Assembly (NCBI GenBank): GCA_902728285.1
Contig: CACVBU010000957.1
Location: forward strand, 1 to 64,000
DNA length: 64,000 nucleotides
Direction of reading: 5' to 3'
Source of the DNA: Clytia hemisphaerica
Taxonomy: Eukaryota > Cnidaria > Hydrozoa > Leptothecata > Clytiidae
Below are positions 9,401-52,836 of this stretch, piece after piece; within the stretch, counting starts at the first letter, position 1; every line of letters begins with the position of its first letter. Both the position numbers and the translations under genes were made by a program. Under the pieces are notes generated by a model, which saw only the letters and a list, made by a program, of their open reading frames with translations, was not told where the DNA came from and made no database searches.

Positions 9401-10862
9401 GAGTCTCGACCATTTGGAACGTAACATCTCTTCATCACCAACAGTGAGCTCCTCAATCTCCTTGAAAAGGAATTCCTTTAACTTATCCAAATCCGAGGGA
9501 AGTGGCAGTTCTTCAGGCTTGTTATCTTTCTTGTCATTCAAAGTGTCCATGGCATGTTTGGAGTAGGTCGACCATTCCTCGCCATGGAGCACCAAGAAAT
9601 TTTTGGCTTCCTCTTGCATACTTAGATCTTTTTTGCGAATTCCGAGAGCATTCTTAATGCCACCAAGGCTTGCTAAAGACCTGCCCAAATTGAGTAGGAG
9701 ACTTGGAAGACCAACATGCTGTTTTTCATGTGACACAACAACCTTGACAGCCCGAACAACGTCATCCCAACAGGAAGAATCAATAAGATCGAGTGATTCA
9801 AAATGTGAATTCATCATTTCCCGGTACCGGAGAATTAACCTTGCCATGGCACGAAGTTTGCTCGATATCTCATTGTATGACTCGTCCCCGCCTTTATCAT
9901 ATAATTTTTGGCCATACATAAGAAGCCCTACATCATTTTTTACAGTGTTTGTCAGTTCATCCTGTTTCATACGTTGAATAACGTAGGATTTAACATCGTG
10001 GAATTGAGACTCTTCCGAAAGCTTATGCTCAAGAAGAATTCTTGAAGATTTTAAATTGAGTTGACGGTCATCATTTGCACGGCATGTTTTCATGTGCCTG
10101 TTTAAAAGATTGCTTTTTATTGTCGCGTTGCATTTGAAGCAGGGTGTATAGTTCTCTAGTGACTTGGTAACCGCTTTTGAATTTCGCACAACAACTTTAA
10201 AGCCTTTCCCCTCTTTCAATGATTTTGTGTTGGCAACCATATCTCCCTCCTGGCGCAGCTCCTTCAACTCCTGATTGATCTTTTTCTTATCGGCAACAGG
10301 ATTCATTTTAAGTATTTTGGCAACCCTTTCTTTGTCTGCATGCATTGATTTAATATGATCAGTGACCCGAAATCTTGACACTCCACAATACAAACAATAA
10401 TGGAGTTTACGACCATCCAACTGAACATCTTTTCTTTTTTTGTTTTGTTCCTTTCCTGAAGTGAAAGCAATAGTGTAAAGATATCAGTTTATGAAGAAAT
10501 ATCTGCGAAAAAATGTCAAATTAGATTCTCTATAGTATTCTAAATTGCTGAATTACAGTGTATACTCATACAAAAATTATTTTGACAATCACGTATATCT
10601 TATCCTTACCAACAACAGGAATGCCAATTTTTGAACGGTGCTGGACACAGAAATCGAGGTGTAAAAAAGCCGATCCGGTAAGTTATATAAAGATCAGTGA
10701 CGCATACAGTACAGTGTTTCCACTCTCAAGAGCTACTCTACTTCAATTAACAAGATACCCTAAAGTCCGGGGATGGTAAGAAGTATCAACTACCTTTACT
10801 TGATTCTGATGTAGGTAAGACGGTACTCTTCTTTCGTTCGGACATCTCATGACTCTCTTCAG
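3244..10862 (-). CDS. Zinc-finger / tyrosine-recombinase-fold protein with SANT-like tail, six-exon gene
   Basis: Exons, reading the minus strand: 10862-10794, 10455-8782, 8518-8462, 5629-5490, 3727-3676, 3452-3244. Every junction has AG and GT borders and phases chain exactly (1, 1, 1, 0, 1), leaving one frame to a TAG stop, about 733 codons. The large exon gives two zinc-finger motifs and a tyrosine-recombinase-like core; the last exon gives a SANT/Myb-like helical segment; the middle exons are acidic or lysine-rich linkers. I recognise this architecture as a multicopy family of unknown function in cnidarians and molluscs, probably derived from a Crypton-type transposase. An ATG lies in the first exon listed, but an upstream exon is possible because that exon enters in phase 1. 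Alternative donors (GTAAAG) 6 bases inside the ends of exons 10862-10794 and 8518-8462 keep the same phase. Confidence 0.72.
3676..3727 (-). CDS. Lysine-rich linker exon
   Basis: A 52-bp exon with CTTTTAG acceptor and AAAG/GTGAAA donor, phase 0 in and phase 1 out. It encodes a short run dominated by lysine, possibly a nuclear localisation signal. Confidence 0.5.
4891..5040. mobile_element. Foldback MITE, 150 bp
   Basis: Two arms of about 67 bp are near-perfect reverse complements (4891-4957 and 4974-5040) around a 16-base loop. The arms start AATTCATGATATGCACC. A partial third arm lies at 5058-5092. It sits in the third intron of the zinc-finger/recombinase-like gene. No target duplication is obvious. 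Confidence 0.75.
5490..5629 (-). CDS. Acidic linker exon
   Basis: A 140-bp exon with TCTAG acceptor and AAG/GTATGA donor, phase 1 in and phase 0 out. It encodes a segment rich in Asp, Glu and Ser, ending in a lysine triplet. Its phases match both neighbouring exons, which is the main reason to accept it. Confidence 0.6.
6817..6985. repeat. Two diverged ~70-bp direct repeats
   Basis: The block with GGTGGTATACCTATTTT followed by ATTCAACTTAGTAC and GGGTACT occurs at about 6819 and again at about 6920. Related TACTAAG/GGTGGT text continues on both sides (6240-7060), so the intron probably holds decayed copies of one simple element. Confidence 0.55.
7718..8430 (+). pseudogene. Decayed non-LTR retrotransposon (LINE) fragment, linker and start of RT
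   Basis: The plus strand encodes, with several frame changes, the region between endonuclease and reverse transcriptase of a LINE. Recognisable pieces are NRTLRKAIMERSRL-like linker text at 7735-7800, a KPFFSDKH-like block near 7955, an AELFNNYFNGITKTL block near 8049-8092, and an RT-start block with FPEPLKRATVTPV near 8362-8400. At least three frameshifts and several stops break it. Both ends are missing. It lies in an intron of the surrounding minus-strand gene, on the opposite strand. Confidence 0.75.
8462..8518 (-). CDS. Small acidic phase 1-1 exon
   Basis: A 57-bp exon with TTTTAG acceptor; donor either at 8462 (GTTGGT) or 8468 (GTAAAG). It begins with an Ala-Gly/Glu-Glu-Ser-type start that resembles the exon at 10862-10794, suggesting exon duplication within the gene. 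Confidence 0.5.
8782..10455 (-). CDS. Large exon: two zinc fingers plus tyrosine-recombinase-like core
   Basis: This exon encodes about 557 residues. Counting from the codon at 10420, a C2H2 finger uses C9, C12, H22 and H27, and a second C-x2-C...H...C motif lies near residues 93-112. A helical region follows. The C-terminal third matches the tyrosine-recombinase fold: Arg354/355 in an RRGSEP motif, a basic beta-hairpin near residue 400, Arg477 in a TKIRKHLAT motif (the usual first His of HxxR is absent), His503 in HLGH and the candidate nucleophile Tyr512 in WYR. Most of the catalytic set R-R-H-Y is therefore present. The family is known from cnidarians and molluscs; I infer origin from a domesticated or single-copy Crypton-like element. 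The exon is entered in phase 1 and left in phase 1. Confidence 0.75.
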
Positions 10863-11163
10863 CTAAACAGAACACAAATAGGATTGAATATAACGATACT
10901 TTCCGGTCACTAATAGTCATCACCATTCGTTCTTATGAAAAAAGAGGATCATTTTGAGAATTCTAAAAAACGTTCTAAGTAGCCTAAGGCAAACAAGGAA
11001 GTTTCAATCAATATTGAGTAAAATAACATTGATCCTAAACAAAAAGCAATAATATACCAAGGAACATCACAGCAAATTTGATAAAGAGCAGACTTAGATA
11101 AAGACTTAAAATTGTCCTTTAACAAGCAAAAAATTCTGTGAGTAAATTTCACCATTCAATCTA
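10752..11163. repeat. Segmental duplication, left copy
   Basis: The block beginning AAGATACCCTAAAGTCC at 10752 recurs at 15403, offset 4651 bp, and stays nearly identical up to the satellite. It contains the 69-bp exon at 10794-10862. Confidence 0.85.
10794..10862 (-). CDS. 69-bp exon of the zinc-finger/recombinase-like gene
   Basis: Acceptor TTTAG, donor AAAG/GTAGTT (or the inner GTAAAG). It is open in phase 1 and encodes an acidic then basic segment containing a methionine (ATG within CATGAGATGTCC) that could be the start. The next exon at 10455 continues in the same frame. An almost identical copy lies at 15446-15514. Confidence 0.5.
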
Positions 11164-12685
11164 CAATGGATCAAAATTGCCAGTAAATGTCAGTACTTGA
11201 CGAACCGATAAAAAAACAAAAGAAAACTTCAAGGAAATGCAATCTGATATTGGATCAAAATTGCCAGTAAATGTCAGTACTTGACAAACCGAAAAAAACG
11301 AAGTGAAAACTTCAAGGAAATGCAATCTGATATGGATCAAAATTGCCAGTAAATGCCAGTACTTAACAAACCGATAAAAAACCAAAAGAAAACTTCAAGG
11401 AAATGCAATCTGATATTGGATCAAAATTGCCAGTAAATGCCAGTACTTGACGAACCGATAAAAAACCAAAAGAAAACTTCAAGGAAATGCAATCTGATAT
11501 ATGGGTCAAAATTGCCGCTAAATGTCAGTACTTGAAAAACAAAAAATCCCAATCATTGACTTGATGACAACGTTACTTTCCATCATTGACTTGATGACAA
11601 TGTAACTTTTAATGATACTTTCCAGTCACTAATTGTCACCACCATCCATTCTTATATCTCGAGAAAAAGCAGCCAAGGGCAAACAAAGAAACTTCGGAAA
11701 AGAAAAATAATTCAGTCAATATTGAGTAAAATAACATAAAATAAAAGAACATTTATAAGCAAAATAAATACCCCCTAGGAAAAGTTCAGCAAATTTGTTT
11801 TTATATAAAAAATTGTCCTTTCCCAAACTAAAAAATTATGTGAATAAATTTTGACCAATCAATCTAATATGGATCAAAAGTGACGGCAAATGTCAGTACT
11901 TAACTGACCGGTAATTTTGATAAAAAAAAGCCCAAGAGAAAAATTTCCAGGACAATCAATCAAATAAAGACTAAATTGCCCTGTCAGTACTTGACAAACC
12001 GAAAAAAACGAAGTGAAAACTTCAAAGAAATACAATCTGATATGGATCAAAATTGCCAGTAAATGTCAGTACTTAACAAACAAAAAAAGGCCAAGAGAAA
12101 ATTTTAAGGGAATGCAATCTAGGAAAGAGTAAACTAACAGCAAATGTCAGTACTTGAGAAACAAAAAAGACCCAGAGAAAACTTCAAAGAAATGCAAACT
12201 AAGAAAGGGGAGATTGCCAGCAAATGTCGGGACATGAAAAACAAAAAAAGCCCAAGAGAAAACTTCATAGAAATACAATCTGATATATGGATCAAAATTG
12301 CCAGCAAATGTCAGTACTTAACAAACTAAAAAAGCCCAAGAGAAACTTTTAAGGCAATGCAATCTAATATGGATCAAAATTGCCGCTAAATGTACAGTAC
12401 ACAAAATAATCAAAAAGCCCAAGAGAAAACTTCAAGTAAATGCAATTGAATAATATATAGATCAAAAATGCCGCTAAATGTCAGTACTCAACAAAATAAC
12501 AAAACCAAAATAAGACTTCAAAGACATTCAATCTGATATGAATAGAAATTGCCAGTAAATGTCAGTATTTAACAAACGAAAAAAAACAAAAGAAAACTTC
12601 AAGGAAATGCAATCTGATATGGATCAAAATTGCCAGTAAATGTCAGTACTTAACAAACGAAAAAAAAACAAAAGAAAACTTCAAG

Positions 12686-13113
12686 CATAGCTTCAGCCCC
12701 CCCTTACTTTTGGGGGGGGGGTGGGGCAAGAAATATTTTGACCTTTAAAGAACCTGGGGGCTAAAATTACCAAAATATTTGGGGGGACCTAGATTGTTGG
12801 GGGGAGCCTGGATGATCTGACTGAGACTCTGGGGGCTGTTCAGCTAATTTGAAAAGATCTCTTATCTTACTATTAAATCAAGCAAAAGATTTGTAAACAT
12901 AAATATTAATGGAAGTAAAATTTAGTTTTCATTTATCAGTACTGTACTCGCATATATTTTCTATGACTTCTCTCTACGGGGGCGGAAGGACAATGTTTTT
13001 GTTTTTTCCCCAAGTGTTAGGGGACCTAGCATAATGCAATTTTTTGGGGGGAGGTAAATTGTTGGGGGGACCTTACTTTGTTGGGGGGAGCTAGAAACCT
13101 GGCTGAAGCTATG
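12686..13113. mobile_element. MITE in satellite, copy 1 (428 bp)
   Basis: Terminal inverted repeats CATAGCTTCAGCC / GGCTGAAGCTATG bound a G-run-rich non-coding interior. A 5-bp target duplication TCAAG flanks it, and the duplicated bases belong to the satellite unit, so it inserted into an existing satellite. Confidence 0.85.
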
Positions 13114-14116
13114 TCAAGGAAATGCAATCTGATATGGATCAAAATTGCCAGTAAATGTCAGTACTTGACGAACCGATAAAAAAACAAAAGAAAACTTCAA
13201 GGAAATGCAATCTGATATGGATCAAAATTGCTAGTAAATGCAAGTACTTGGCGAACCGATAAAAAACAAAAGAAAACTTCAAGGTAATGCAATCTGATAT
13301 GGATCAAATATGCCAGTAAATGCAAGTACTCAACAAACTAAAAAAAACAAAATAAGACTTCAAAGTATTTCAATCTGATATGAATAGAAATTGCCAGTAA
13401 ATGTCAGTACTTGACAAACGAAAAAAAACAAAAGAAAACTTCAAGGAAATGCAATCTGATATGGATCAAAATTGCCAGTAAATGTCAGTACTTAACAAAA
13501 GAAAAAAAACAAAAGAAAACTTCAAACAAGGAAATGCAATCTGATATGGATCAAAATTGCCAGTAAATGTCAGTACTTAACAAAACAAAAAAAAACAAAA
13601 GAAAACTTCAAACAAGGAAATGCAATCTGATATGGATCAAAATTGCCAGTAAATGTCAGTACTTGACGAACCGATAAAAAACCAAAAGAAAACTTCAAGG
13701 AAATGCAATCTGATATGGATCAAAATTGCCAGTAAATGCTAGTACTTAACAAACGAAAAAAAAAAAAGAAACTTTTAAGGCAATGCAATCTAATATGGAT
13801 CAAAATTGCCGCTAAATGTACAGTACACAAAATAATCAAAAAGCCCAAGAGAAAACTTCAAGTAAATGCAATCAAATAATATATAGATCAAAAGTACCGC
13901 TAAATGTCAGTACTCAACAAACTAAAAAAACCAAAATAAGACTTCAAAGACATTCAATCTGATATGAATAGAAATTGCCAGTAAATGTCAGTACTTAACA
14001 AACGAAAAAAAAAAAAGAAAAAGAAAACTTCAAGGAAATGCAATCTGATATGGATCAAAATTGCCAGTAAATGTCAGTACTTAACAAACGAAAAAAAAAC
14101 AAAAGAAAACTTCAAG

Positions 14117-14537
14117 CATAGCTTCAGCCCCCTCTTACTTTTTTTTGGGGGGGGGGCAAGAAATATTTTGGCCTTTAAAGAGCCTTGGGGGCTAAAATTA
14201 CCAAAATATTTGGGGGGACCTAGATTGTTGGGGGGAGCCTGGATGATCTGACTGAGACTCTGGGGGCTGTTCAGCTAATTTGAAAAGATCTCTTATCTTA
14301 CTATTAAATCAAGCAAAAGATATGTAAACATAAATATTGATGGAAGTAAAATTTAGTTTTCATTTATCAGTACTGTATATTTTTTATTGACTTCTCTCTA
14401 CGGGGGCGAAAGGACAATGTTTTTGTTTTTTCCCCAAGTGTTAGGGGACCTAGCATAATGCAATTTTTTGGGGGGAGGTAAATTGTTGGGGGGACCTTAC
14501 TTTGTTGGGGGGAGCTAGAAACCTGGCTGAAGCTATG
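14117..14537. mobile_element. MITE in satellite, copy 2 (421 bp)
   Basis: Same element, same satellite position, flanked by TCAAG and TTAAG. The surrounding satellite variants (from about 12360 and 13790) also match at an offset of about 1431 bp, so this copy arose by duplication of a higher-order unit rather than by a second insertion. Confidence 0.85.
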
Positions 14538-15402
14538 TTAAGGAAATGCAATCTGATATGGATCAAAATTGCCAGTAAATGTCAGTACTTGACGAACCGA
14601 TAAAAAAACAAAAGAAAACTTCAAACAAGGAAATGCAATCTGATATGGATCAAAATTGCCAGTAAATGCCAGTACTTAACAAACGAAAAAAAACAAAAGA
14701 AAACTTCAAGGTAATGCAATCTGATATGGATCAAAATTGCCAGTAAATGTAAGTACTTGACAAACCGATAAAAAACCAAAAGAAAACTTCAAGGAAATGC
14801 AATCTGATATGCATCAAAATTGCCAGTAAATGTCAGTACTTGACGAACCGATAAAAAAAAACAAAAGAAAACTTCAAGGTAATGCAATCTGATATGGATC
14901 AAAATTGCCAGTAAATGCCAGTACTTGACGAACCGATAAAAAAACAAAAGAAAACTTCAAGGAAATGCAATCTGATATGGATCAAAATTGCCAGTAAATG
15001 TCAGTACTTGACGAACCGATAAAAAACGAAGTGAAAACTTCAAGGAAATGCAATTGGATATATGGGTCAAAATTGCCGCTAAATGTCAGTACTTGAAAAA
15101 CAAAAAAACCCAATAGAAAACTTCAAGGAAATGCAATCTAATAAATGGAGAAAAATTACCAGTAAATGTCAGTACTTGACAAAACCAAAAAAACCCAAGA
15201 GAAAACTTCAAGGAAATGCAATCTAATAAATGGAGAAAAATTACCGGCAATTTTAGTACTTAATGAGCCAAAGAAGACCACAAGGAAACTTCCAGACATC
15301 AATATTAGAAGCAGTAATTTTTACTACTTTGGAAGGTTTGTAAATTGAAAATCTAATCAAATAAAATTTACTAAAACGCAAATCTCGATAATTTCCATTA
15401 AA

Positions 15403-15817
15403 AAGATACCCTAAAGTCCGGGGATGGTCAAAAACTATTAACTACCTTTACTTGATTCTGATGTAGGTAAGACGGTACTCTTCTTTCGTTCGGACATCTC
15501 ATGACTCTCTTCAGCTAAACAGAACACAAATAGGATTGATATAACGATACTTTCCGGTCACTAATAGTCATCACCATTCGTTCTTATGAAAAAAGAGGAT
15601 CATTTTGAGAATTCTAAAAAACGTTCTAAGCAGCCTAAGGCAAACAAGGAAGTTTCAATCAATATTGAGTAAAATAACATTGATCCTAAACAAAAAGCAA
15701 TAATATACCAAGGAACATCACAGCAAATTTGATAAAGAGCAGACTTAGATAAAGACTTAAAATTGTCCTTTAACAAGCAAAAAATTCTGTGAGTAAATTT
15801 CACCATTCAATCTACAA
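15403..15817. repeat. Segmental duplication, right copy
   Basis: Near-identical to 10752-11163, then continuing into satellite units. It places a second copy of the 69-bp exon at 15446-15514. Confidence 0.85.
15446..15514 (-). CDS. Duplicate copy of the 69-bp exon
   Basis: Identical in reading frame and splice borders to the exon at 10794-10862. Because its phase is 1-1, inclusion of both copies would keep the frame, so it could be used as an alternative or repeated exon. Whether it is transcribed is unknown. Confidence 0.35.
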
Positions 15818-16090
15818 TGGATCAAAATTGCCAGTAAATGTCAGTACTTGACGAACCGATAAAAAAAACAAAAGAAAACTTCAAGGAAATGCAATCTGAT
15901 ATTGGATCAAAATTGCCAGTAAATGTCAGTACTTGACAAACCGAAAAAAACGAAGTGAAAACTTCAAGGAAATGCAATCTGATATGGATCAAAATTGCCA
16001 GTAAATGCCAGTACTTGACGAACCGATAAAAAACCAAAAGAAAACTTCAAGGAAATGCAATTGGATATATGGATCAAAATTGCCGCTGAC

Positions 16091-16887
16091 AACATAAATC
16101 CCAGTCTCAGGTTACCTACGGTTAAAAAATATTAAAATCAATCGGGCTGGAAAAAGCAAAAAGTTGAAAAAGGTCACAGGGTTCGATTAAATTCCACCAA
16201 AAACAAAATCTTCCGTTTGGAATTTTTACACCTAAAATTTGTATTTTGAGGCCATATTAGCCTATATTTGGGACCAAAATTGCCCTCATACGCAAAACAT
16301 TGAGGGCCTGACCTGAACCGCGAAATTAAAAGCTGCAAAAATTTCTTCTCTTACTCTTCTATGCTTAATTGAAGGGGGAGTCATTTTACATTTTTTTGAT
16401 TTTTTCATCCCCAAAATCCCTTTATAATAACCCCCCCCATTTTATGACTTTTGCCCCAAAAATGTCAAAAACCTTCATTTTCCTAGGTAAAATCACAAAA
16501 ATCACTCAAATATCACTTAATTATGACCCCCCTATTTTATGATTTTTCCGGAGTATCGACCCCCTGCTTATTCGACCCCCTGCTTATTCGACCCCCTACA
16601 ACTAAGCACAGGAGAGTAAGGTATTGAACAATTTTAAAATGAATAGAAAACACTCTTCTGTAAATTTCCAAATCTTCCAATCTTCCCTTAAAAAATTCAC
16701 CCTCCTCTTTTTGTCCGGGGGGTGCCCACTTTGTAAACTCACTCAAGTTTTATCTGAGGGTTAAGATAATTTATCTGGGGCTAACCCTTTCAGATGAAGC
16801 TATTTTTTGCTATCCTGTCCACAAAGTAATTTTGAGCTCTATTGATCGAGTTCAAAATGCGAAAAGGTAGGTAGTCTTTCTACTCTT
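16091..16887. other. Non-coding stretch
   Basis: No recognisable gene. It contains a short tandem repeat around 16553-16600 (units of TCGACCCCCTGCTTAT) and several C runs. The 3' UTR of the MULE gene to its right would lie here. Confidence 0.4.
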
Positions 16888-19242
16888 TCAAACAAAAAGC
16901 ACAAGATCTTGAAACGTATATTTCAAATCAAATGATAAATTTGAAGTTGAATTACCTTTCAGTTTTTTAATTTTCAGAGTGAGATTGTTGATGAATGATT
17001 GAGATATAACACCTTCCAAAATTCCCAGATCAATTTCTTCTTCATCTTCTTGACTATTTTCTACTACATTCGGTGGATTCGGATCAATCGAAAAGGAGTG
17101 GTCTTTGAGTGGTATTTCATTTATCCTTGTTAGCATGCGTTTCTTATCATCACCTGATTGACATATATTTGAAAATAACTACCCTAAGGAACGAAATTTT
17201 CAGAGGAAAAAATTTCGTGGTTTTGGCTGTCAACCGCGAAACACAAAAAATCTTTGACCCCTAAAAATTGCATTTTGAAAATTTTTTGTTTTTTGAAAGG
17301 TGTCAACTCCCCCTTCAGAAAGCTGCTGCGGCTTTTAACATTAGTCTTAAGAAATTCAAAGCCAAAAGGGTTTGTAATAGGATATAAAAGGTACCTGCAC
17401 TATCCCAATAACCATGCTGGATGTGTTCACGATAGACAGGATTAACAATGAGCTCTGAACTTTGGTTTAGAAATGGTTTCTTCATCTCCTTACTCTGGTG
17501 TTCAATGAAACCCTTTACTGATACAATAAATTCTGCCATCGCCATCGTTTGGTGCCCTTGCCATTCCTTAACTGCTTTGTTGATGCTTTCTGTTGAATTG
17601 GTGGTGAATTTTAAAGCATGATGGAAAACGTTAGCATCAATCACCAACAACTGGCGGCAATGACTATACAATAACTCTGCTTTGTTCTTCTTGAAATACT
17701 TGAAGAACTGAGGGTTTCCTGCTAGCTTGTTTCTCTTCTTTTGTTCATTCTCTAACTCATTCCATCGTGTTTTCAGCTGGGCCAGATTCAGGTCGAATTG
17801 AGCGCGGGAGCTTGAGTGGTAGAGCCCTTCTGAGCTTGAAGAACCAAAAAGATCCAATGCAACAGTTATATAAAAGCCATCACCGAGATGAAGTGTAGAT
17901 TTTATGTACTCTTCAATGTTTCGCATAATGTGTATGGAACAAATAAAACTGAATGCAAAGGGAAATTCTTCAGAGTGTGCATCCAGTATTGCCCTCTCTC
18001 TATCCTGACCAAATGCTCTGAGTGTAGATTTTAAGGCAGGCATTTTGTTGATAATTGATTGGAAGAGTGATAAATACTGTTCTTTAGTCTTCCTTTGGCA
18101 TAGCATCACAGGGCCCATCGCTGTCACAGGACGGCCAGTTCTTTTGGATAAGACCATTAGATTGTTGTAAGTGGTTATAACGACCCAAAAATCTCCAAGC
18201 TTGAAAGTCATATCACAGGAGAAAATAGATGCTTGCTTGCTAACATCAGGACCACAAAACTTTTTCACATTTGCAAGCTGCTCATCTGTAAACAGAATCA
18301 CTGTTGGGGAGTTGTCCTCAATGAAAACCTAAAAAAAATAAAGGTGCTCATTATCATTAATCGTGTAAATTTGGTCAGGTAAATTTGCTTTTCCAGGGAG
18401 GGGGTTGATTTTTTCTGCCACAATTTACCTTCACACCACAGATTAAACTGCTATTTTGGGCTATAGAGAGAAATTAATCAAAGGTGATAACATATTTTCT
18501 GGTTGCCTACTATTATCTTCAAGTGTGAAAGTTGAAAAATTTAAAATTCAAAGAGGGGGTAAAAAATTGGGATAAAAACAAACGTGCACAGGAGGGGGTA
18601 CTTGAAATCAAATATTAACGGAGGGTCTAAAATTTAGTAATATCGGGCCAACGTAATTGTTATAATGGCACAATAGACTAAATGATATCCCTGCCAAACC
18701 TCTCAAGTAATAAACTTATCAAGCTTACCCGTCTAATGAATTTTTGATGTCCCTCTTGTTCCTGCAAGTGGGTGACTTCAAGCAAAGGATCATATGGTTT
18801 CATCTGTGTTGTTTGTTGTCTGTTCGAAGATATCGTATCTGTCTTTCGTTCCTGGGAAAGTCACCAGGTGATTCTGCAAGTAGTCCACCACTTTCATTTT
18901 CGAGCGTGTGCGCAATTTTCTTGTTGGACTTTTGCAATTTGACTTCTTCTGAAATTCTTTCTAAAACACTTTTCTTGGTAGGATAATGTGGAGTTGAAGC
19001 TTTTGAATTCCCACGAGGCTTGATTTCAATTGAATGGGGCTCGCCATCAAAGCGGTATTGTACAACAGCTAATTCGCTTTTGACATTATTTTCGTCCTCT
19101 GCAGTAATAATCACTCTATGGAAGTCTGTTGATGACGAGTTCACTGAACGTATCCTTGTCACCTTGAACCAATTCTTTCCGTCTTTCCCAGGCTTAATTT
19201 TTCCATGTTTGTCAAAAAACTTTTTTTTTTCATTAAAAAAAC
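16888..19242 (-). CDS. MULE (Mutator-like) transposase gene, with introns and one frameshift
   Basis: Exons on the minus strand: 19242-18729, 18328-17395, 17153-16888. The intron at 18728-18329 joins in phase 0 (CGG/GTAAGC to TTTAG/GTTTTC); the intron at 17394-17154 splits a Gly codon and restores an open frame. The second exon carries the MULE transposase core: CDMTF (first Asp), a TYNNLMV/GPVMLCQRKT block, a second Asp in FGQDRERAIL, and a C-x-x-H motif (CSIHIMRNIEEY). The first exon carries the upstream region with an ESGGLL...PGDFPRNERQ motif typical of animal MULE proteins. Between the NKQHR and PYDPLL motifs (about 18780-18800) the frame shifts by one base, so the copy is either inactive or contains a sequencing error. 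More 5' exons are likely. No terminal repeats were found. Confidence 0.75.
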
Positions 19243-20745
19243 CTGCAAAATTCATGTCAACAGAGAAATTTTTAAGCACTTTTATTTGGTAAAAACTCAA
19301 TTTTAAATTAGTTTTTGGACTGAAATTTTTAACTATTTTGGACATTTTTAATCACATTTTAATAATTTTCCATCCCACAACTCTGCTTAAGATTGATGTA
19401 ACTGTGACCTTATACCTTTGGTTTAGATCTTGTTTGCCATCACAATTTGCAATTTTAATATGCCTTTCTTCATTTTATTTGACATGAAAGTCAACTGGTC
19501 CTTCTTCATTTTGTTGCTCCTCATTCACACTAAAAATTGTTTGAATAGTATCTAAATACTTTCGATGGAAGGTTATGTCAAGCAAAAAACAAGTGATACT
19601 TTTATGAACCTACCTGATTATCAAAACTAATCAATGAACATTTAAACAATGAAAAAAATAAGACATAAAATGGTCAAAATCGAAAAAATAAACTTGTTTG
19701 GGTAACTTTCAGAGCACAAACAGTGGCGATCTATTAAAGTTTGTTGCTTATTTCTTATAAAAAAACATCTTTAGAAACCAAAATTTCATGCTCATAAGCA
19801 TATTCACATTCACAAACATAAGCAATTTTTCAAATTCTAGACGTTGTGAGCAAAACACAATCTCATCAAAAAATTGAGTAATTTGGCTACAAACATTCAA
19901 GTTTGCTTATTAATAATGATTCTTATAGATAAAGATGCGTTTTCTGGGCCGACAATTCTTTTTTGCAAAATCAAATTGATCACAATTATTCTTCAAAAGT
20001 AAGCCTTCATGAGCAAAAAACATCTATCTTATAAAAGCAAATTGAGTAATTTGGCTAAGAACATTGATGTATGCTTATTAATAGTGATTCTTATAGATAA
20101 ACCAACAGATTTTTTTGCGAAAATCTGCTTGAGCCATTTTTTACCTATGATAGCACCCTACTTTCATGCAAAGAATTAGAAAAAATCAACGATCCAATTT
20201 TTTACAAAGTCCGAAAAAGCTGTTTTTTAGCCGTTTTTTGGCCCAAATTTGCCCAAAAATTTTGTTTTCAAAAATCGGGCTCCGTCACATTTTGCCCACT
20301 ACCATTATGCACCTTTCTACAAAAAATCAAAAGACTCCTATGATTCAATCCTGAGAAAAGTTGGTAACAGACGAACAAACGAAGGAACACAGGTTAATTT
20401 GTAGGACCTCCCAGGTAGGTCGAAAAATTAAAAAGTACTCTCTCTCCCTTTTAATATGATCATTAAAAGCTTACTTTTAATGATGACAAGTACACCAGAA
20501 GAGGCCGACCAGTTAGGTCTCTGATGGAACAGGTAATGGCCAATGAAAATTTGGGCATTGATGGCTTATGTAATGATGCATTGAAAAGGAGAAAATAGAT
20601 ATTATTTTCTATGATGAGACTGGGTTATCCAGAATTTTATTTATTTACATTTACATTTATTTATTGACGAGAATTTGATGCAAGTCTATTCTGATATCAA
20701 GACGGACTTGCATCCTATTCAACCTAGGAATAGGGAATAGTAAAT
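19243..20745. other. Mostly non-coding; local repeats
   Basis: A minus-strand stretch near 19430-19545 reads like an acidic exon (NEEQQNEEGPVDFH) but contains an in-frame TAA and does not phase with the MULE exon. Near 19850-19940 and 20010-20105 a block with TGAGTAATTTGGCTA and TGATTCTTATAGATAAA is repeated. 20166-20420 belongs to the repeat family seen at 33360-34280 (shared CAAAAATCGGGCT, GGTAACAGACG and TAGGACCTC text). 20640-20690 is a TTTATTTACATT simple repeat. Confidence 0.5.
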
Positions 20746-20807
20746 TTATATATATATGTGAAGAAATTCAAAGAATTTCTGTCCAACTATCTTCTTTCAG
20801 GAGATTT

Positions 20808-20871
20808 GGGTGGCAGAGCAGCATATGCATTTCGTCCTTATTAGGACTCGTCAGCACTGCATACTGCACCC
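20808..20871 (-). ncRNA. Hammerhead ribozyme, type I, copy 1
   Basis: Minus strand: core CTGACGA, helix II GTCC/GGAC with loop TAATAA, then GAAA. Helix III is ATGCAT, only two pairs around a two-base loop if monomeric. The cleavage triplet is ATA, with scission predicted between 20824 and 20823. Helix I inner part is GCAGTG with TGCTGC (two wobble pairs); after a small internal loop the outer part is GGGTG/CACCC plus CAG/CTG with one bulge. All invariant core positions are present. Confidence 0.9.
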
Positions 20872-21110
20872 TGGCTAGGCAGATCGAATTGCCTAGCATC
20901 TCACGCCATAAAACTAATTGTGGCGCAGACTGAAAGAAGAAGTGGACAAAGGGAAATTCCCTAGGGAATTCTGTGAATGACTCCTCTAGAGTCAAGCTTG
21001 GGAGAGAACCAAGAGGGAGGAAAGCCTCAACACTGCATGGTCTCAAAAAAGAATATATATGTGAAGAAATTCAAAGAATTTCTGTCCAACTATCTTCTTT
21101 CAGGAGATTT

Positions 21111-21174
21111 GGGTGGCAGAGCAGCATATGCATTTCGTCCTTATTAGGACTCGTCAGCACTGCATACTGCACCC
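21111..21174 (-). ncRNA. Hammerhead ribozyme, type I, copy 2
   Basis: Identical to copy 1 over the core and all three helices. Predicted cleavage lies between 21127 and 21126. Confidence 0.9.
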
Positions 21175-21413
21175 TGGCTAGGCAGATCGAATTGCCTAGC
21201 ATCTCACGCCATAAAACTAATTGTGGCGCAGACTGAAAGAAGAAGTGGACAAAGGGAAATTCCCTAGGGAATTCTGTGAATGACTCCTCTAGAGTCAAGC
21301 TTTGGAGAGAACCAAGAGGGAGGAAAGCCTCAACACTGCATGGTCTCAAAAAAGAATATATATGTGAAGAAATTCAAAGAATTTCTGTCCAACTATCTTC
21401 TTTCAGGAGATTT

Positions 21414-21477
21414 GGGTGGCAGAGCAGCATATGCATTTCGTCCTTATTAGGACTCGTCAGCACTGCATACTGCACCC
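21414..21477 (-). ncRNA. Hammerhead ribozyme, type I, copy 3
   Basis: Identical to copy 1. Predicted cleavage lies between 21430 and 21429, so copies 2 and 3 bound one exact 303-nt monomer. Confidence 0.9.
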
Positions 21478-21716
21478 TGGCTAGGCAGATCGAATTGCCT
21501 AGCATCTCACGCCATAAAACTAATTGTGGCGCAGACTGAAAGAAGAAGTGGACAAAGGGAAATTCCCTAGGGAATTCTGTGAATGACTCCTCTAGAGTCA
21601 AGCTTTGGAGAGAACCAAGAGGGAGGAAAGCCTCAACACTGCATGGTCTCAAAAAAGAATATATATGTGAAGAAATTCAAAGAATTTCTGTCCAACTATC
21701 TTCTTTCAGGAGATTT

Positions 21717-21780
21717 GGGTGGCAGAGCAGCATATGCATTTCGTCCTTATTAGGACTCGTCAGCACTGCATACTGCACCC
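21717..21780 (-). ncRNA. Hammerhead ribozyme, type I, copy 4
   Basis: Core and helices are intact although the unit is truncated about 35 bp to the right of this motif. Predicted cleavage lies between 21733 and 21732. Confidence 0.9.
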
Positions 21781-21980
21781 TGGCTAGGCAGATCGAATTG
21801 CCTAGCATCTCGAATTGCCTCTCTCATCTCACTATATATTCTTGAAATATATTTAGCACTAAGTCCAAAAAAACCGCTTTTTAGGCAGCTAAAAAGCCCA
21901 AATTTGCCGCAATTTTTTTTTCTGAAATCAAGGTCCAGCCTGATCCAGTTGAGGAATGAGAAAACTAATAGTACTTACAC

Positions 21981-22029
21981 CTCATCAACATCATCACGAC
22001 AGTTGGGGTTGAATGACTGGTAGAAAGTT
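21981..22029 (-). CDS. Candidate short exon, unrecognised
   Basis: Acceptor TTTTTCTAG, donor GAG/GTGTAAG, 49 bp, phase 2 in and 0 out. It encodes a segment with FYQSFNPNCRDDVDE. It phases with the candidate exon at 22632-22470. The two may be 5' exons of the MULE gene, but the phase does not connect to that gene's first visible exon, so at least one exon would be missing. Confidence 0.3.
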
Positions 22030-22469
22030 CTAGAAAAAAGGCAGTTTGTTTTGATCAGCACTGAGAGTTGTATAGTGCCTAACACATACCATAGTCCAAA
22101 TAAGAAACCCCGGTCTGGAAGCCTTTTGTTTCTTTCTATTGTTTCTTACTTGAACTTGCGTTGAGAAATTAGTTTGTTTTGCTCACTTTTTGATCATGTG
22201 ATTAACTTTTGAACCAATCCCAAGAGATATATTTGGTAACATGATCAAAAACTGAGCAAATCAACTTTTATAATCATTATTAACAAAGGAAAAAGTTAAC
22301 AAAAAGTTACAACAAAAGCCTTCCAGACCAGTGTTTTTTATACGGACTATGCACATACTATTTCCATAAGATGATTTCCTATAATTATATAACACGTACA
22401 AATGCTAAGCAAACTTATGGCTGGAAGGAAATAAGTGAAAAGGTAAGTCAGAATGAAGAACTGACATAC

Positions 22470-22632
22470 TTTAATGAGTTGTTCTCATTGTTGTCACTGT
22501 CTTGTATTTTATCAGAATTTGTGCACATTCCATTTGATGACACTGAAAACATCTCTTCAAGATTTTGGTTAATCCCATCGATCCCATTTGATGACGCTGA
22601 ACACATCTCTTCAAGACTTTGGTCAATCCCAT
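22470..22632 (-). CDS. Candidate acidic exon with internal 17-residue duplication
   Basis: 163 bp, acceptor ATCAG, donor AAA/GTATG, phase 1 in and 2 out. It encodes two successive copies of a DGI(D/N)Q(S/N)LEEM...SSNG module. The DNA duplication (CCATTTGATGA...CTTCAAGA) is clear at about 22525-22632. No domain is recognised. A further AG...GT-bounded open stretch lies at 22916-22848 but its phase (2-2) fits neither neighbour. Confidence 0.35.
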
Positions 22633-22916
22633 CTGATTTACTTAAAAAAAATTATTATTATTATTATTGTTATTAGTTTTTGTGGCCGAAAATGTTCAGG
22701 TTTAAATATAAGAACTCTTATATTAAATTTTATATTATAAATTTTCAGAATTTCATGCAAAATTACACCATATAATATTCTTGCTAAAGAAATGACTAAA
22801 TCATAAATAATACACATGATTCTAAAGGAAAAATATATCTAAGCTACCTGGTGTTATTGCCATAAGACTTGTAAATACTTTGAGCTATGATAACTCTGCA
22901 ATCATTTTGTTCTTCA

Positions 22917-23918
22917 CTAAAAATATAACAATGAATCTATTAAATCAACTCCAAATAGAGGTCCTTATCTCCAAAAGATTCCCATATATAATTATTGAAA
23001 TTTTTTAAAATGAAGTAGAGCTACATACTAGTATTTGTACAATTACTTTTTAAATAACTTAAAAGAAATAAAAAACAATGAAGAAAACTTAGAGCAAGTC
23101 ACTTCAAAAATTAGCTCTCACTATTGTAATTACATATGATCATATACATACCTATTGAATTGTTGTTCCCGATCGTAATTGAACTAAAACAAAACAAGCA
23201 AAATTATAATAAGTTTGAACATCCTAAATAACAGTCAGGATATGGCTGTTTTTTGCTTGATAAAAATGTTCAAGTTCGCAATGAAACTTTCTTCAAGCCT
23301 CCCCCCCCCCAAATATAATATTGAAAAAAGAGAAGAATCAAGACATTGACTTAGACAAGTCTATTACAAAAAAATATTCTTATAAAAACTTTGTCAAAAA
23401 AAAAACAGAGAGAAAAAAGCCCAACACGTTACAGATCAGATCGAGAAGAAACATTATCCTATGTATAAATTGGTGTACAAAAGGTGTAAAATTACATGCT
23501 GATAAAATAAAGACCAGAAAAAAATATATGACTAATACCAATAGTTTACCATAACAATACAATCATTAGAGTGGGACCTAAAAATCTTGCAAACCAGGAC
23601 CCAGGACGATAGGTTGGATCTTAGGACCGTAAAATCTTCTGAACCAGGGCCCTAAATTCTCAAAGTCGAGAATCCGAGAGTGGGGTTGTACCCAGTGACC
23701 TACTTTAAAACACTAGGTGAAACTTTGAAAATCTTTTTTGAACTGGGACCCTATGCTGGGACTACAAAATCTCAAACACCAGGACCCTAAAATCTCACGA
23801 GCTGGGAGCTTGTAACAGACAAAAGGCCATTGGTTAATTTAAAGGACCTTCTTGGTAGGTCCAAAAATGTGTAATGAAGTGTATTTTACAGTCAACAACA
23901 TATAGATAAAATATAAAC
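22917..23918. other. Non-coding stretch with degenerate short repeats
   Basis: No gene seen. From about 23570 to 23815 there are several copies of an (A/C)CAGGACCCTAAAATCT-like unit, strongly diverged. The sequence near 23816-23870 shares GTAACAGAC...GGTTAATTTAAAGGACCT with the repeats at 20360 and 34230. Confidence 0.4.
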
Positions 23919-24195
23919 CTACTTCATGAGATGTTGGATCACTAAGACATTGCAGTATGACATTTCCAACTGAAGAAGGGCATTCTGTATCAGGAAATAA
24001 GGTAAACCAATAAGGAGACAGTTTCTCATCATGGTCCAAGATGATTATATTTGGTGGATAGACTCCAAGTAATCCAGCTTCTCTATTAATGATCCCTAAG
24101 TCTTGAGCTGAATGTACCACATAGCTATCAAAGTGTTTTCCTAGCAGGGATTTGTCAGCGTAGCGAGATAAAGGTCCAAGTGGCAGTCTGGAAAG
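23919..24195 (-). CDS. Candidate exon, conserved-looking, function unknown
   Basis: 277 bp with TTTTTTCACAG acceptor and GTAG/GTTTAT donor, phase 0 in and 1 out, open throughout. It encodes about 92 residues with VVHSAQDLGI, GVYPPNIIILDHDEKLSPYWF and TSHEV motifs, compositionally like a folded globular domain. Its outgoing phase fits both the candidate exon at 22632-22470 and the first visible MULE exon at 19242-18729, so it may be the 5' part of that gene. I do not recognise the domain. Confidence 0.45.
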
Positions 24196-24375
24196 CTGTG
24201 AAAAAATTATTATTTTGATATGACGTATGAGATGTTTAATTTTTAAGATTTGTGACGTCATTAAAATTGTTTGTTTGATGACGTCACAAATTTTAACAAG
24301 CAATATAATGAATGGACCCACCTAATGATTACATCAGATGAAAATAGGAAAATATGACAAATAAAAAAAACACAA

Positions 24376-24560
24376 GGCCCGGAAAACCCGAGTTACAAAA
24401 AATCGAGTTACAAAAACCCGAGTTACGACAAATGTGACAAATTACGACAAATCTCAAATTATGACGTCATTCATCATTTTGTAACTCGAAAAAGATAATT
24501 TTGTTTATTTATGTAACTCGAATTTTTTTTTCAGTTTTTAGTTTTCGATTTGCGTAAAAC
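24376..24560. repeat. CGAGTTA-motif repeat, copy 1
   Basis: Begins GGCCCGGAAAACC, repeats CGAGTTAC several times, has TTATGACGTCA in the middle and inverted GTAACTCG at the right. It is related to 25054-25250 and, inverted, to 34594-34840. Confidence 0.6.
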
Positions 24561-24818
24561 TCAAAAAACACCCCCAGGTATTCACCCCAAGAGCAAGTGT
24601 GCAAAATTTTAGCCAAATCGGACCATTTTAGTCTCCCAGCCTGCCTGCCCCACAAAGTTTTCGGATATTATCAGATATTCAACTGAGAATATTTGAGAAT
24701 TTCCAAGTGGGGTCATGGTTTCCAAGCAAGGGGTTATAAGAACCTTGTTTTTGGTGTTTGAAAAAGGTTTGTCAATACCCCTGTATGTTTTCTGGGGAAA
24801 TCCCACTTCTTAAAAAAT

Positions 24819-25011
24819 GTCGAACTGATGCGCTGTCGAACAACTGATCGCTTAGTTGTTCGACAGACCAGTTGTTCGACAGTTACTTGTTCGACATCCA
24901 CTTGTTCGACTGTATGGTTGTTAGACACCCACTTGTTCGACACTCATTTGTCGAACAAGTGGTCTGTCGAACAACTAAGCGATCAGTTGTTCGACAGTGC
25001 ATCAGTTCGAC
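24819..25011. mobile_element. Foldback element of TTGTTCGAC repeats
   Basis: Two 62-bp arms (24819-24880 and 24950-25011) are reverse complements with two mismatches, around a 69-bp spacer. Arms and spacer consist of about ten copies of TTGTTCGAC or its complement at roughly 18-bp spacing. It lies between two CGAGTTA-type repeats. A related cluster is at 34960-35215. Confidence 0.75.
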
Positions 25012-25053
25012 GGACCAGTTGTTCGACAAAATAAAACAACGGAAATGAAACGA

Positions 25054-25250
25054 GGCCCGGAAAACCTAGGCCCGGAATCATCGAGTTACCAAAATTTGAG
25101 TTAGAAAATTTTCGAGTTAGCGCCGATTTTCGAGTTAGCTAAATTATGATGAAGTGAAAGTTATGACGTCACTTAACTGTTACTCGCTTTTCCATTTTCC
25201 CAAAAGGATTTTCGAGTTAGCAATCAACTCGGATTTCATTTTTCTCAAAA
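25054..25250. repeat. CGAGTTA-motif repeat, copy 2
   Basis: Begins AGGCCCGGAAAACC, contains four CGAGTTAG/C motifs, TTATGACGTCA and a TTTTCGAGTTAGCAA end. It resembles copy 1 and the reverse complement of 34594-34840. Confidence 0.6.
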
Positions 25251-27483: not shown

Positions 27484-30400
27484 CCCTAATCTAATTTTCG
27501 CAAAAATAACTTGTATATATAATTAAACAGTCTATAAAATAAAGCTACAATAACGAAAATGATAGGTGAAAGTAAGATTACTAATTCAATAAACAAAAGA
27601 ATTTTACCGGTCAAATAATACTCTGCATTATCTACAATGTCAATATTGATTGACCACGCCCAGAATGTGTTTACAAACGCTAGAGTTATTAATAACGACA
27701 TTGACATTAATTGTATGAAATTGAGCGACTTTTCGACAAAAGGTTTGACTGTGTAATCATGGATATAATCTGAATATAATCAACAGAAACCCAGTTGGGT
27801 ATAATTTCATGATCGGTGACCGGATGAACGTGGTACTAATGATAAGGATCAAGCGACGTGCGACAAACACCGGCTCCCAAACAATTTTAACTGGCTTGCA
27901 TATTATTTGTTCAGACGTTTCATCTTTGTTTATACTCACTCGAAAAGGTTGATTCATGAAGCTTACAATATCACTCTGTTCTATGGTCATTTTCTCTGAC
28001 CATACATTCTGAGATTGACCAAGGTACCAGTTTCTTGTTTTGTAAAACAGTACTACTGGTGGAAATGTAAGGGTCAGCAACATTTCATTTGGTGTGATTG
28101 CTTTTGATCGAAGCCAACAGCAACCAAAATATAATACAAAAGGAAAGGGAACAATCCAAAAACAAATCACCACAAAAACCATGATCTGCCATTGTTGGTA
28201 ACACGCCACTTCAGCTTGATTAAAAATCCACAGTCCACCGTCAATTTCAATACAATCTACAGATTGTAAACAAAATGTTGCAATGCTAGCATAACCAAGA
28301 ATTAGAATCTGAACATAGCTAACTTTCAACCGGTTGATGAATGACGAGATTTTATATTGGTTTTCCTGGTGGTATCTGACAAGGTTGACCACGAGAAGTG
28401 ATACTGGTATTAGAATAATACACGAAAGAACGATACTTAATCTGAAAAGTTCAATAGCAGCAATACTCTGTGTTTGGATAGGGCACAAATCGATCAGATT
28501 GGAAGATTTGATTGCGATTTTAATGTCGAAAAATGATGAAAGAGTTTCAATAAGATATGGCATGTGATATTCCATTTTAGCTGAAGAAGTGATTCGTATA
28601 ATCGAAGCTGTCTGGTAAAAGAAAAATGTGATTTTGATAAGACCTGAAATATATGATTGCTGATCAAAGTTAAGATTGTTGTGTGAGTTTGTCTCATTCA
28701 CTTCGTTGTCGCTGATCAAGTTATAAGGAGTATCCGGGAATCTATTTCGAACAGAATCTCCACGATCAATCCTGGTCAATCTCGCATAGAGTTTATGTAG
28801 TTTGTTTTTAATAGCGAGAAGTACATCTTTGTGGTATAGTAACAATCCGAAAGATAATACGATAACAATTGCAAAAACAAACCAAAACCAACTCGCCAAG
28901 CATTTTGAACTATCAACACATTTGTTATGACTAAATATGCTTATAAAGTCTCCAGGTCTACACCCTCCACACAACCGCCCTTGACGCCTGTTTGCACATG
29001 TGTTATACGAATGACATCTTTTTAAACGATCACAACAATAAAAGGGTGGACATATCTTAAATGTCACATATCCAGAGGAGTTTGAGTAACCCCAATAGTT
29101 TCCTCTACTTTTGATACCGTTAATACAAGAAGCTTGAAAGGGACATTGATAACATGTTGAATTATGAACATGTATTTTTCCATTGCTATCGTAATTGGCG
29201 TATGGTTTATTTAGAGCGTGGTACGATGTTCCGTCACATTGGACAAACTTCATTCGAATGTTATTTTGAAAGTGTGAATTCGACCAGTCACCAAGAATAT
29301 AATAGTTAGATTCTAAGCATGAGAAATTTGAGTCTGTAATAAAAACAGTATCTACATCGAAAATATTTTTAACGAAAAAAGCTGTACTGGACCTTTTTTC
29401 ATTCGTTCCACCGTCACACAATTGTACTTTTGTGATGTTTAAAAATCGATTACTGATGCCTTTTAGTGTTAAATATATGGAGGTTGGCATCACTGTATAA
29501 GGAGTAGTATTGTTTAGAAAAGTACAATTGTAAATGGTTATATGTTCTGACTTGATCGTAATACCAGCTGACATATCATAGCTGAAAGGTATAACGATAT
29601 CTTTATCACAGAAGTAATTGTCAAGAAATGTTGAATTCAATATTGCAACCCTGTACCCTTCAGAGTAAATCGAACCCGACTTTGAACTTTTGAATGAAGA
29701 ATCGTTAACTAAAAGTTCGTTTTTGCCACTATCGTAAACATTAGTCACTTGTATTTGATTTAAGTATGTACCGACAGAATCAAAAGTGCATTTCGAGATT
29801 GATATTTTTACAAAATGACACGTTGTAGTAAATACGAATAAATTCGAACGTTCAAAGCTTGTCCTTGATATGACAAAATTTCCTGGTTGTTTCACCCTAA
29901 TCGTTAAAAACGAATCTGATGAAAATGCGTTGTCGGTTATTTTGTAGTCTATAGGTTTTCCAAAATAATGGATATTTCTTGCGTCCATCTCAAGGGATGT
30001 TTGTTTTAGAAATGTATTGTTACTACTTGAGATTCGATCGAATCCTGTTATGTATATGAATGTTCCGGTTTGCCATGTACCCTTGAATTGATTATATTTC
30101 ATAGCTATTATCCCTGTAACATTCTTCTTATTTTTGATTTCCATCGTAAAACTAGAAAAATGGCAATCTTGAAGCAAAACTCTCATAACACTCACTTTCT
30201 CTGATAAGATGTGATCTTGATGAGATTCTCTCAGTGTTTTTTTCGGACCTTCTTTATTTTTTGTTTTCCCAGTATAACTAAAAGGTGCTGTGAATCTACA
30301 AACCATGAGCGTTACATTGGTAAAACCATAACCATTAATTAGCTCTGTTGATGGAGCGTCATTTGACTTTTTCCATTCGAAATTGCAGTTAACCACGTCT

Positions 30401-31591
30401 AAAGTTTTCGAAGTATTTGGATGGGAAACAAAATGATAAAATTTATCCGCACCAGAACTCTTTGGGAGATAAAATCTAACAGAGATGTTGTGAAGACTGA
30501 AGTCACCCGATAGTAAAAATACCGTAAAACGTGGCATCTTTTGATCGTTTTCGAACAATACATTAGCCATTTCTCAACTACAGGTGAAACTAGTATTACC
30601 ACAATAGCTTGAGATTTCCAAAGAATGAGGTATTACAATAGTTTCATTGCGAACGTATTGATATTGTGAATCCAGTAAAATGATATCTCCATCCAGTGAA
30701 ATGTTAATAGCGTGATTTCAATGAAAGCATGGTTGATGAATTGAACCGCAATTGATCGTGTCTTTGCTCCTCTTGTCACGTGACACATGAATAGTTCTTT
30801 GCTCGATTCCACGAGATACTAAAAAGTAAGAAATTTAAACATTAACGTTATAATATTTTTGACAATATTATTTTTAGGAGTTGCAGCTGGCTCCTTTTTC
30901 AAAGTGGTAATGATAGTTACAATATAGAGACTTTTTCAAGGTGACTTAAAGCAGAATTTGGTTTGATTGGAAACTTTTACTTTGGCTTTCTGCTTTGGCC
31001 GGAACAGGATCAACCGCAACCTCGTGCCCGTGTATCCCAGGCTTTATTTACACTACTGATGGACGCCAGAGAATATTATTTAGCGCCATATAGTTAAAGC
31101 ATAAAAAAGCTGATGATGCGCAGGGAACGAGGTTGGATCAACCGTTCCCTTCCTCCGCCTCTGCTAAAAGGGCAATAGATATACAGAGAATAAGCTCCTG
31201 TCTCACAGCCCCGATGAAACCTTTCCCCATATTTCTATCGAAACCTCAATGAGGATAGAAAATCTTTTGCTTTCAGGTTAAATTTAATTTGTATGGTTTT
31301 AGATGTTTTTCTCATTGAACTATGAATTGGGATGGAACTAAATTCAATTTTCCAGTGGGGCTGAAATTGTAGGGTATTTTTTTCCAAGTTTTACAGTATG
31401 AGTGGATACCCCACTGGCCCCCACTGGGTCTGTGATATAGGGATGTGGCATATGAAAATCCTCTGAAACCTCAGATAACCCAACCATTCAAGTCAAGACT
31501 GTTAACGTATGATTTTCAGAAATAAGATAAACTAACCTTCGAAGCAAAATGTGAAAATCAAAAACACGTAAAAAGATAATACAGTACACAT
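27484..31591 (-). CDS. Parallel beta-helix, cysteine-rich, multi-pass membrane protein gene (with breaks)
   Basis: Exon 1 (31591-31537) encodes a clear signal peptide: Met, then a hydrophobic core, with donor GAAG/GTTAGT in phase 1. Exon 2 starts at 30818 after TTTTTAG and continues in frame with a VSRD...TINCGSIHQPC motif typical of the N-terminus of cnidarian beta-helix proteins. Then come many short N-glycosylatable beta-strand repeats (xxNxTF...), a Cys-rich stalk (CPPFYCCDR, GRLCGGCRPGD) and at least six hydrophobic segments from WFWFVFAIVIVLSF onward. The family is a multicopy group of cell-surface proteins in cnidarians; the role is unknown. Breaks: in-frame TGA near 30728 and near 30573, and a one-base insertion near 27765, after which the frame continues to 27484. 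The 937-codon stretch 30570-27757 is uninterrupted. It is either an early pseudogene or an assembly with small errors. Confidence 0.7.
31017..31135. mobile_element. 119-bp MITE with 9-bp target duplication
   Basis: Ends CAACCTCGT / ACGAGGTTG, flanked on both sides by the exact 9-bp direct repeat GATCAACCG (31008-31016, 31136-31144). A 9-bp duplication is typical of Mutator-like transposition. Partial relatives occur at 32846-32870 (CCCGTGTATCCCAGG end) and 34485-34515 (GCAGGGAACGAGGTTG end). It lies in intron 1 of the beta-helix gene. Confidence 0.82.
31197..31446. mobile_element. CCCCACTGG-family element with inverted ends
   Basis: Left end CCTGTCTCACAGCCCC and right end GGGTCTGTGATATAGG are imperfect inverted repeats. 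The right part carries CCCACTGGCCCCCACTGG. It is related to sequence at the window start and at 34290-34465. Confidence 0.55.
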
Positions 31592-34593: not shown

Positions 34594-34840
34594 TTCCCAA
34601 GATAGCTAACTCGAAAACTTGTGCGCGAAAAATAAATTCCTAGTTAACTAACTCAAAAAAAGGTTTTGCGAAAAAAAAGATTCCAGTTAATTCTAACTCG
34701 AAAAATCTTTTTTGGAAAAGAAAAATCCAGTTAGAATTGAGTATACGTCATAATTTAAATTTTTATGACGTCATAATTTAGCTAACTCGAAAATTGCTAA
34801 CTCGAACTTTTCTAACTCGAATATACGGGCCTCCCTTCGG
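34594..34840. repeat. CGAGTTA-motif repeat, inverted copy
   Basis: Reverse complement of the 25054-25250 type: repeated CTAACTCGAA, TATGACGTCA near 34767 and ACGGGCCTCC at the right end. Confidence 0.6.
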
Positions 34841-34959
34841 AGCTTTACCGTGTCGGAAGAAAATTTCTGCATCTGGGAGCCAGATAAGGGTAAACCATAG
34901 GCTACGATTTTATGTGAAATACACTTTGGTACAGGGTAATATACAAACTGTCGACCATC

Positions 34960-48292: not shown

Positions 48293-48353
48293 ATACTCAC
48301 ACCATCGTCTTCAAGACTCACTGTTTTTATGCAAACAAACATTCTACATCATC

Positions 48354-52815: not shown

Positions 52816-52836
52816 GACTTTGTAAGATATTCCACA

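Follow-up and report, generated by a model that had tools for sequence, protein, structure and literature searches.

A tandem array of 3.5 copies of a 303-bp unit lies at positions 20750–21811 of the 64-kb stretch of Clytia hemisphaerica DNA analyzed here (hereafter, the window), and its minus strand carries four identical type I hammerhead ribozyme cores. We consider it likely that this array is an insertion of a nonautonomous, non-LTR retrozyme of the metazoan kind and that it works like one; the evidence comes from this one locus. Elements of this class are described as type I hammerheads in tandem repeats of 150 to 450 bp, with low G+C content and without LTR, PBS, or PPT (PMC7229834), and accounts of the retrozyme criteria and life cycle are found in PMC7229834 and PMC7761336. 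The array falls within that size range and has four hammerheads, one per unit. The first-pass annotation had called it an animal retrozyme, and the repeat size, the single hammerhead per unit, the G+C content, and the self-pairing of the RNA all support this reading. Animal retrozymes supply ribozyme-made circular RNA in nature, and the locus is useful because it combines readable ends with a clear prediction, namely, that the ribozyme cuts as a dimer rather than as a monomer.

The 303-bp array and its hammerhead cores

The array measures 1062 bp, with a period of 303 bp and 99% matches, and the minus strand is its transcript sense. The bounds proposed in the first-pass annotation, 20746–21812, were at most 4 bp off. 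The array is made up of three full cut-to-cut monomers of 303 nt on the minus strand (monomer 1, 20824–21126; monomer 2, 21127–21429; and monomer 3, 21430–21732) and two partial ends. Monomers 2 and 3 have the same sequence, from which monomer 1 departs at a single one of its 303 positions, in agreement with the earlier description of the units as almost identical. That description had also counted four units, each with a hammerhead; the four identical minus-strand cores are indeed present, while the units number 3.5, three of them complete. Neither a further copy of the 303-bp unit nor an LTR-like pair made by such a second copy was found elsewhere in the window. The array is apparently a recent, compact insertion. 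Because none of the four cores is damaged and a single position varies among the monomers, the source RNA would have been copied recently.

The hammerhead copies occupy minus-strand positions 20808–20871, 21111–21174, 21414–21477, and 21717–21780, with core starts at 20854, 21157, 21460, and 21763, spaced by exactly 303 bp. The last base of the AUA triplet lies at 20824, 21127, 21430, and 21733, and the predicted cuts are 20824/20823, 21127/21126, 21430/21429, and 21733/21732; the cleavage junction named earlier, 21127/21126, is correct by these core coordinates. All four copies show the type I arrangement of CUGANGA, GAAA, and an NUH triplet with helix I open, and the parts that had been recognized from the letters (CTGACGA, a four-pair helix II with a TAATAA loop, GAAA, an ATA triplet, and a two-part helix I) were each confirmed in the sequence. 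Helix I consists of 6 core-side pairs, an internal loop, and 8 further pairs interrupted by a single bulged base. In helix II, there are 4 pairs, or 5 when the outer U-A of its TAATAA loop is counted. Both the helix I internal loop and the helix II loop are thus-named features of the sequence itself. Helix III is minimal, with one A-U and one U-A pair around a 2-nt loop, which together form the palindrome AUGCAU (21128–21133 on the minus strand in copy 2 and the same in all four). This self-complementary segment makes 2 bp and a 2-nt loop alone and 6 bp between two copies. Because 1 of 16 random tetraloops is palindromic, the palindromic tetraloop is weak evidence when taken alone. Other cleavage triplets were considered and rejected since, by our reading of the sequence, the six-pair helix I forms only with AUA.

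A whole-fold type I descriptor, run on both strands of the window, found these four cores only. From 300 first-order Markov windows of 64 kb, the same descriptor returned 3 cores at a looser setting (~0.01 per window) and 1 at a stricter setting. The loose pattern CTGANGA...GAAA is on its own weak evidence: it has 11 matches in the window (4 of them the array copies) where 5.83 would be expected, and 11 or more occur in 4 of 100 shuffles. Being identical, the four hammerhead copies amount to a single independent observation. What is directly established is the array, its ribozyme core, and the compatibility of that core with the hammerhead fold.

Covariance models of the hammerhead

The first-pass annotation had proposed a covariance-model check of the minus strand, which gave a mixed outcome: Rfam matches stayed below threshold, while two models built here, R1 and R2, matched the array. 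None of the Rfam hammerhead families reached its gathering score for the array copies. RF02275 (Hammerhead_HH9) aligned over its full length (1–77, helix I included) to each of the four copies; the score of 24.1 bits (gathering score, 52) had an E-value of 0.0029 over 1351 bases and 0.14 over 64 kb, and weaker matches from the clan of HH9 were omitted from the Rfam output. Compared with HH9, the array copies have two extra core-adjacent bases and a helix III shorter by three bases, and the HH9 alignment places the AUA triplet differently from the assignment made here.

R1 and R2 were trained on hammerhead-like sequences from IMG/VR viral contigs, which we assume to be mostly phage; these sequences were called by descriptor and are not experimentally defined. 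The scan for R1 used the helix II letters of the window and gave at least 120 stretches; the matches listed included 132 cores, 94 of them type I–like and 84 distinct, out of which 31 sequences of 46 to 52 bases were chosen. In the window, the four copies were the sole R1 matches up to E 10, at 25.8 bits and E 1.5e-6 each, an E-value that is partly circular because the helix II letters of the window had served to select the training set. R2 is the more conservative model, trained without the helix II of the window and without its core letter C. Its scan left helix II free and fixed CTGATGAG and CGAAAC, which gave at least 120 stretches and 111 newly fetched contigs, with 126 cores among the matches listed, 45 of them type I–like at a stricter setting and 31 distinct (46 to 56 bases). 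Removal of a near-duplicate left 30, none with GAGTCC; 24 were used, and six longer or atypical ones were excluded. With R2, the four copies again ranked first in the window (16.7 bits, E 0.006), ahead of a match at 58045–58089 (14.6 bits, E 0.033) by a small margin of 2.1 bits. The E-values of both models are rough, as the tool itself states. The match at 58045–58089 was rejected as a second hammerhead, as it has neither GAAA nor helix II and was unmatched by R1. Since two covariance models put the four copies first in 64 kb, a chance origin of the ribozyme is unlikely. Among the matches listed from the viral contigs, three contigs (L009, L139, and L172) have three or four core-pattern matches within a few kilobases.

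The viral material also bears on the idea that the array is a viroid-like replicating RNA copied by chance into the genome. Such an origin would fit a small, ribozyme-bearing, highly self-paired RNA; however, no plus-strand ribozyme was detected by Rfam up to E 10 over 20600–21950 or by R1 or R2. Moreover, a blastn search for distant relatives of the array in phage and plasmid records gave no match, and exact copies of the core numbered zero in the viral contigs, although these phage, plasmid, and viral collections hold few or no such RNAs, which makes their silence weak evidence. We regard this origin as the least probable of those considered here.

Folding of the unit and of one or two hammerheads

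The self-complementarity of the unit is a direct result. As a 303-nt circle, it has a computed folding energy of −101.1 kcal/mol, whereas 200 dinucleotide shuffles averaged −71.3 (SD 4.7), which places the circle at z −6.3; 66% of its bases are paired as compared to a shuffle average of 60%. The figure of 70% paired bases quoted in PMC4918200 is somewhat higher. The G+C content of 44% is under the 45 to 50% limit for metazoan non-LTR retrozymes. The unit length of 303 is divisible by 3, and in two of the six frames, a lap of 101 codons contains a single stop; at least one such one-stop frame occurred in 15% of simulated sequences and two in 1%. A coding circle was not adopted as an interpretation, as nothing apart from these two frames supports coding.

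The single hammerhead is not the predicted minimum of its own sequence. For the 64-nt segment, the hammerhead fold has −22.5 kcal/mol against a free minimum of −25.7 and is thus 3.2 kcal/mol worse, and for the 43-nt core, it lies 3.6 kcal/mol above the best fold. The 84 distinct viral controls (among the matches listed) had a median gap of 0.0, with 71 of them within 0.5 and 2 at 3.2 or more. When two segments were folded jointly, the double hammerhead reached −50.7 kcal/mol, compared with a sum of −45.0 for two single hammerheads; the sum for two free monomers was −51.4, and the free dimer had −54.8, which is 4.1 better than the double hammerhead. In these models, pairing between two copies would almost pay the cost of the hammerhead fold before tertiary contacts, and the double hammerhead is still not the predicted minimum. 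In a folded two-unit transcript, the cross-copy pairs of the double hammerhead had probability 0, and the in-copy pairs of helix I had probabilities of at most 0.37, with 0.026 for the first pair; folding of the circle gave identical in-copy values.

The sequence around the predicted cut is also unusual in relation to the viral set. Position 1.1, beside the cleavage site, is U.G here, a pair found in 0 of the 84 listed viral sequences (2 of 84 have G.U), and the G.U at the second helix I position is shared by 2 of 84. As for the triplet, 1 of the 84 has AUA and 68 have GUC, again among the matches listed. The combination of a U.G pair with an AUA triplet, both rare in the viral set, is a mark against high activity. 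The modeled energies and pair probabilities likewise count against an efficient single-copy ribozyme and would fit either a dimer-dependent or a weak one.

A weak ribozyme would mean that the array is a retrozyme insertion whose hammerhead is a poorly active or decayed variant, a possibility that concerns activity and is compatible with our preferred reading. The two wobble pairs with which helix I begins, the AUA triplet, and the misfolded single copy speak for it. However, every core is intact, the monomers vary at a single position, and amphibian retrozymes with weak single copies are reported in PMC7229834; we consider such a variant unlikely, though worth keeping in mind. Since the palindrome AUGCAU makes up the whole of helix III and the predicted fold of a lone ribozyme is not the hammerhead, the ribozyme probably cuts as a dimer, by analogy with newts and the axolotl.

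These observations can be drawn together, tentatively, in a model in which the ribozyme is gated by dimerization. The cleavage strand of a lone copy would be trapped in an alternative hairpin, giving a stable 303-nt circle, while multimers would cut themselves through the six-base palindrome; the array ends would then record target-primed copying of the circle, begun at the AU run of the RNA. We see this full model as possible but rather doubtful. If true, dimer gating would explain at the level of sequence what stops the hammerheads of animal circles from reopening them, a question posed in PMC7229834.

Array ends, surroundings, and known retrozymes

The anatomy of the array ends can be read off directly. 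When unit positions are numbered from the cleavage site, the first base of the sense array is 225 and the last is 74. Because copying of a linear cleaved monomer should yield a cDNA that extends to the cleavage site and does not exceed one unit, the template would have been a multimer or a circle copied ~3.5 times. The sense-strand 5′ end of the array is adjoined by 21812–21832 (minus strand), a likely slipped re-copy of unit bases 63–81 (counted on the plus strand from the cut), which aligns with a single 2-nt gap and 17 matches among the 19 unit bases; the array break falls after base 79. Of 6278 21-mers taken at 10-base steps from beyond the array, 24 reached its score of 21 against the whole unit and 0 reached it against the 40 bases round the break. 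The segment likely reflects a slip of the copying enzyme; a later duplication at the DNA level would appear identical.

The only duplication flush with the ends is TATATAT, a putative target-site duplication of 7 bp with low complexity. Its left copy (20747–20753) is ambiguous in register, as the AT run overlaps the unit's own ATATATAT, and its right copy (21833–21839) is flush with the slipped re-copy. The TATATAT pair, together with ends that are slipped and lie off the cleavage site, is a plausible, if low-complexity, sign that a circle was copied by target priming at the AU run of the RNA. None of the 22 inverted-repeat pairs in 16500–24500 is flush with the array; those that bracket it lie far out and are 75 to 89% complementary. 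A 13-bp near-repeat with one mismatch is present at 20689 and 21920, apart from the array ends.

The ends help to weigh a plain satellite origin, in which a ribozyme-bearing unit was tandemized at the DNA level by unequal exchange or replication slippage, without any circle. Tandem repeats are common in the window (43 Tandem Repeats Finder rows, overlaps included), homogenization at the DNA level would also explain near-identical units, and the TATATAT duplication is weak. Against this, there are only 3.5 copies, whose ends adjoin a short flanking duplication and a slipped re-copy, and the strong self-pairing with four intact cores fits selection at the RNA level. We judge a satellite origin to be improbable.

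On the retrozyme reading, the locus would have arisen as follows. A minus-strand read-through transcript would carry several hammerheads, and adjacent ones would fold jointly via the palindromic helix III and release 303-nt monomers, which a host ligase would circularize. The reverse transcriptase of another element would then copy the circle repeatedly, and the tandem cDNA would be joined at a new site. At this locus, copying would have run for ~3.5 laps, probably primed by pairing of an AU-rich RNA stretch with an AT-rich target, and would have slipped once near the end, with TATATAT left at both sides. We infer each of these steps, i.e., transcription, cleavage, action as a dimer, circle formation, circle copying, and the helper enzyme. 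The enzyme and route by which retrozymes are copied back to DNA are described as unsettled in PMC7229834 and PMC7761336.

The window is rich in eukaryotic mobile elements, as judged by Pfam matches. These include a MULE-like transposase below the Pfam cutoff (17315–18328), a Phage_integrase match (8759–10483), an Exo_endo_phos domain (32149–32754), and DUF5641 (59041–60810), which we take to be part of animal BEL/Pao-type elements. Two ORFs carry a reverse transcriptase (RVT_1), one with RNase H and one nearest to Ty3-like and retroviral reverse transcriptases. Region 48090–57287 resembles nested LTR elements: an outer 185-bp pair (48090–48274 and 57103–57287, 97%) flanks a plus-strand reverse transcriptase, and an inner, identical 126-bp pair (49023–49148 and 52837–52962) flanks a minus-strand reverse transcriptase/RNase H ORF.

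Other features of the window were recorded alongside these. Positions 11154–16087 hold a large satellite with an 81- to 85-bp unit in several blocks and with higher-order duplications, and 2192–2847 holds two copies of a 324-bp unit (~85%), where the hammerhead descriptor has no match. Clusters of 15- to 16-bp repeats around TTGTCGAACAAGTGG are present at 24813–25250 and 34664–35217 and are mutually inverted. A tRNA-like sequence at 58295–58364 (minus strand), just over the Rfam threshold and uncalled by ARAGORN in its bacterial setting, is perhaps a SINE head; ~200 bp downstream of it lies CTGATGA...AAAACG, which is partly hammerhead-like and lacks GAAA. Sub-threshold matches to MIR845_1 and MIR8706 (~52 bits) at 4917–5014 perhaps mark an inverted-repeat transposon. 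Last, a 938-aa ORF, measured stop to stop, at 27757–30573 (minus strand) has no Pfam match and by eye looks like a membrane protein with a cysteine-rich stretch.

The reverse transcriptases of the window bear on whether the array might instead be a fragment of a Penelope-like element, a hammerhead-bearing pseudo-LTR without the accompanying reverse transcriptase part. According to PMC7761336 and PMC11167929, the tandem pseudo-LTRs of Penelope-like elements bear type I hammerheads. However, their hammerheads are described as minimal, without helix III or loop contacts (PMC7761336), while helix I of the array is long and two-part, although its helix III is also minimal. Furthermore, a scan of 20 of the 38 ORFs with 110 aa or more gave no GIY-YIG match at E 0.001, and of the two RVT_1 ORFs, one has RNase H and the other has Ty3-like and retroviral affinities. 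We give this origin very little credence.

The retrozyme that we propose belongs to a kind of element already described, and the 303-bp sequence itself may be new. The metazoan class is known from cnidarians to amphibians (PMC7229834). With the metazoan non-LTR retrozymes of Cervera and de la Pena 2020 (PMC7229834), as presented there, the array shares a hammerhead in each unit and, as far as the window shows, the absence of an LTR-like pair; those elements have monomers of 170 to 400 nt, low G+C content, and highly self-paired RNA, and the array is alike in these respects as far as its DNA sequence tells. The flanking duplication differs in length, at most 7 bp at the array compared with the 15 bp given for Nematostella in PMC4918200. 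Plant LTR retrozymes, as described in the same source, have a ribozyme-bounded, circularizing RNA that is thought to be reverse-transcribed, as the RNA of the array would be; in contrast to the array, they carry a type III hammerhead, are ~700 nt long, and make 4-bp duplications, and LTRs with PBS and PPT are part of their description (PMC4918200). The type I repeats of newts and the axolotl (HHR_Amex1, PMC7229834), whose units are given as ~330 and 350 bp as compared to 303 bp here, share with the array a helix III too weak for one copy to act alone, a palindromic tetraloop, and tandem copies that permit a dimer.
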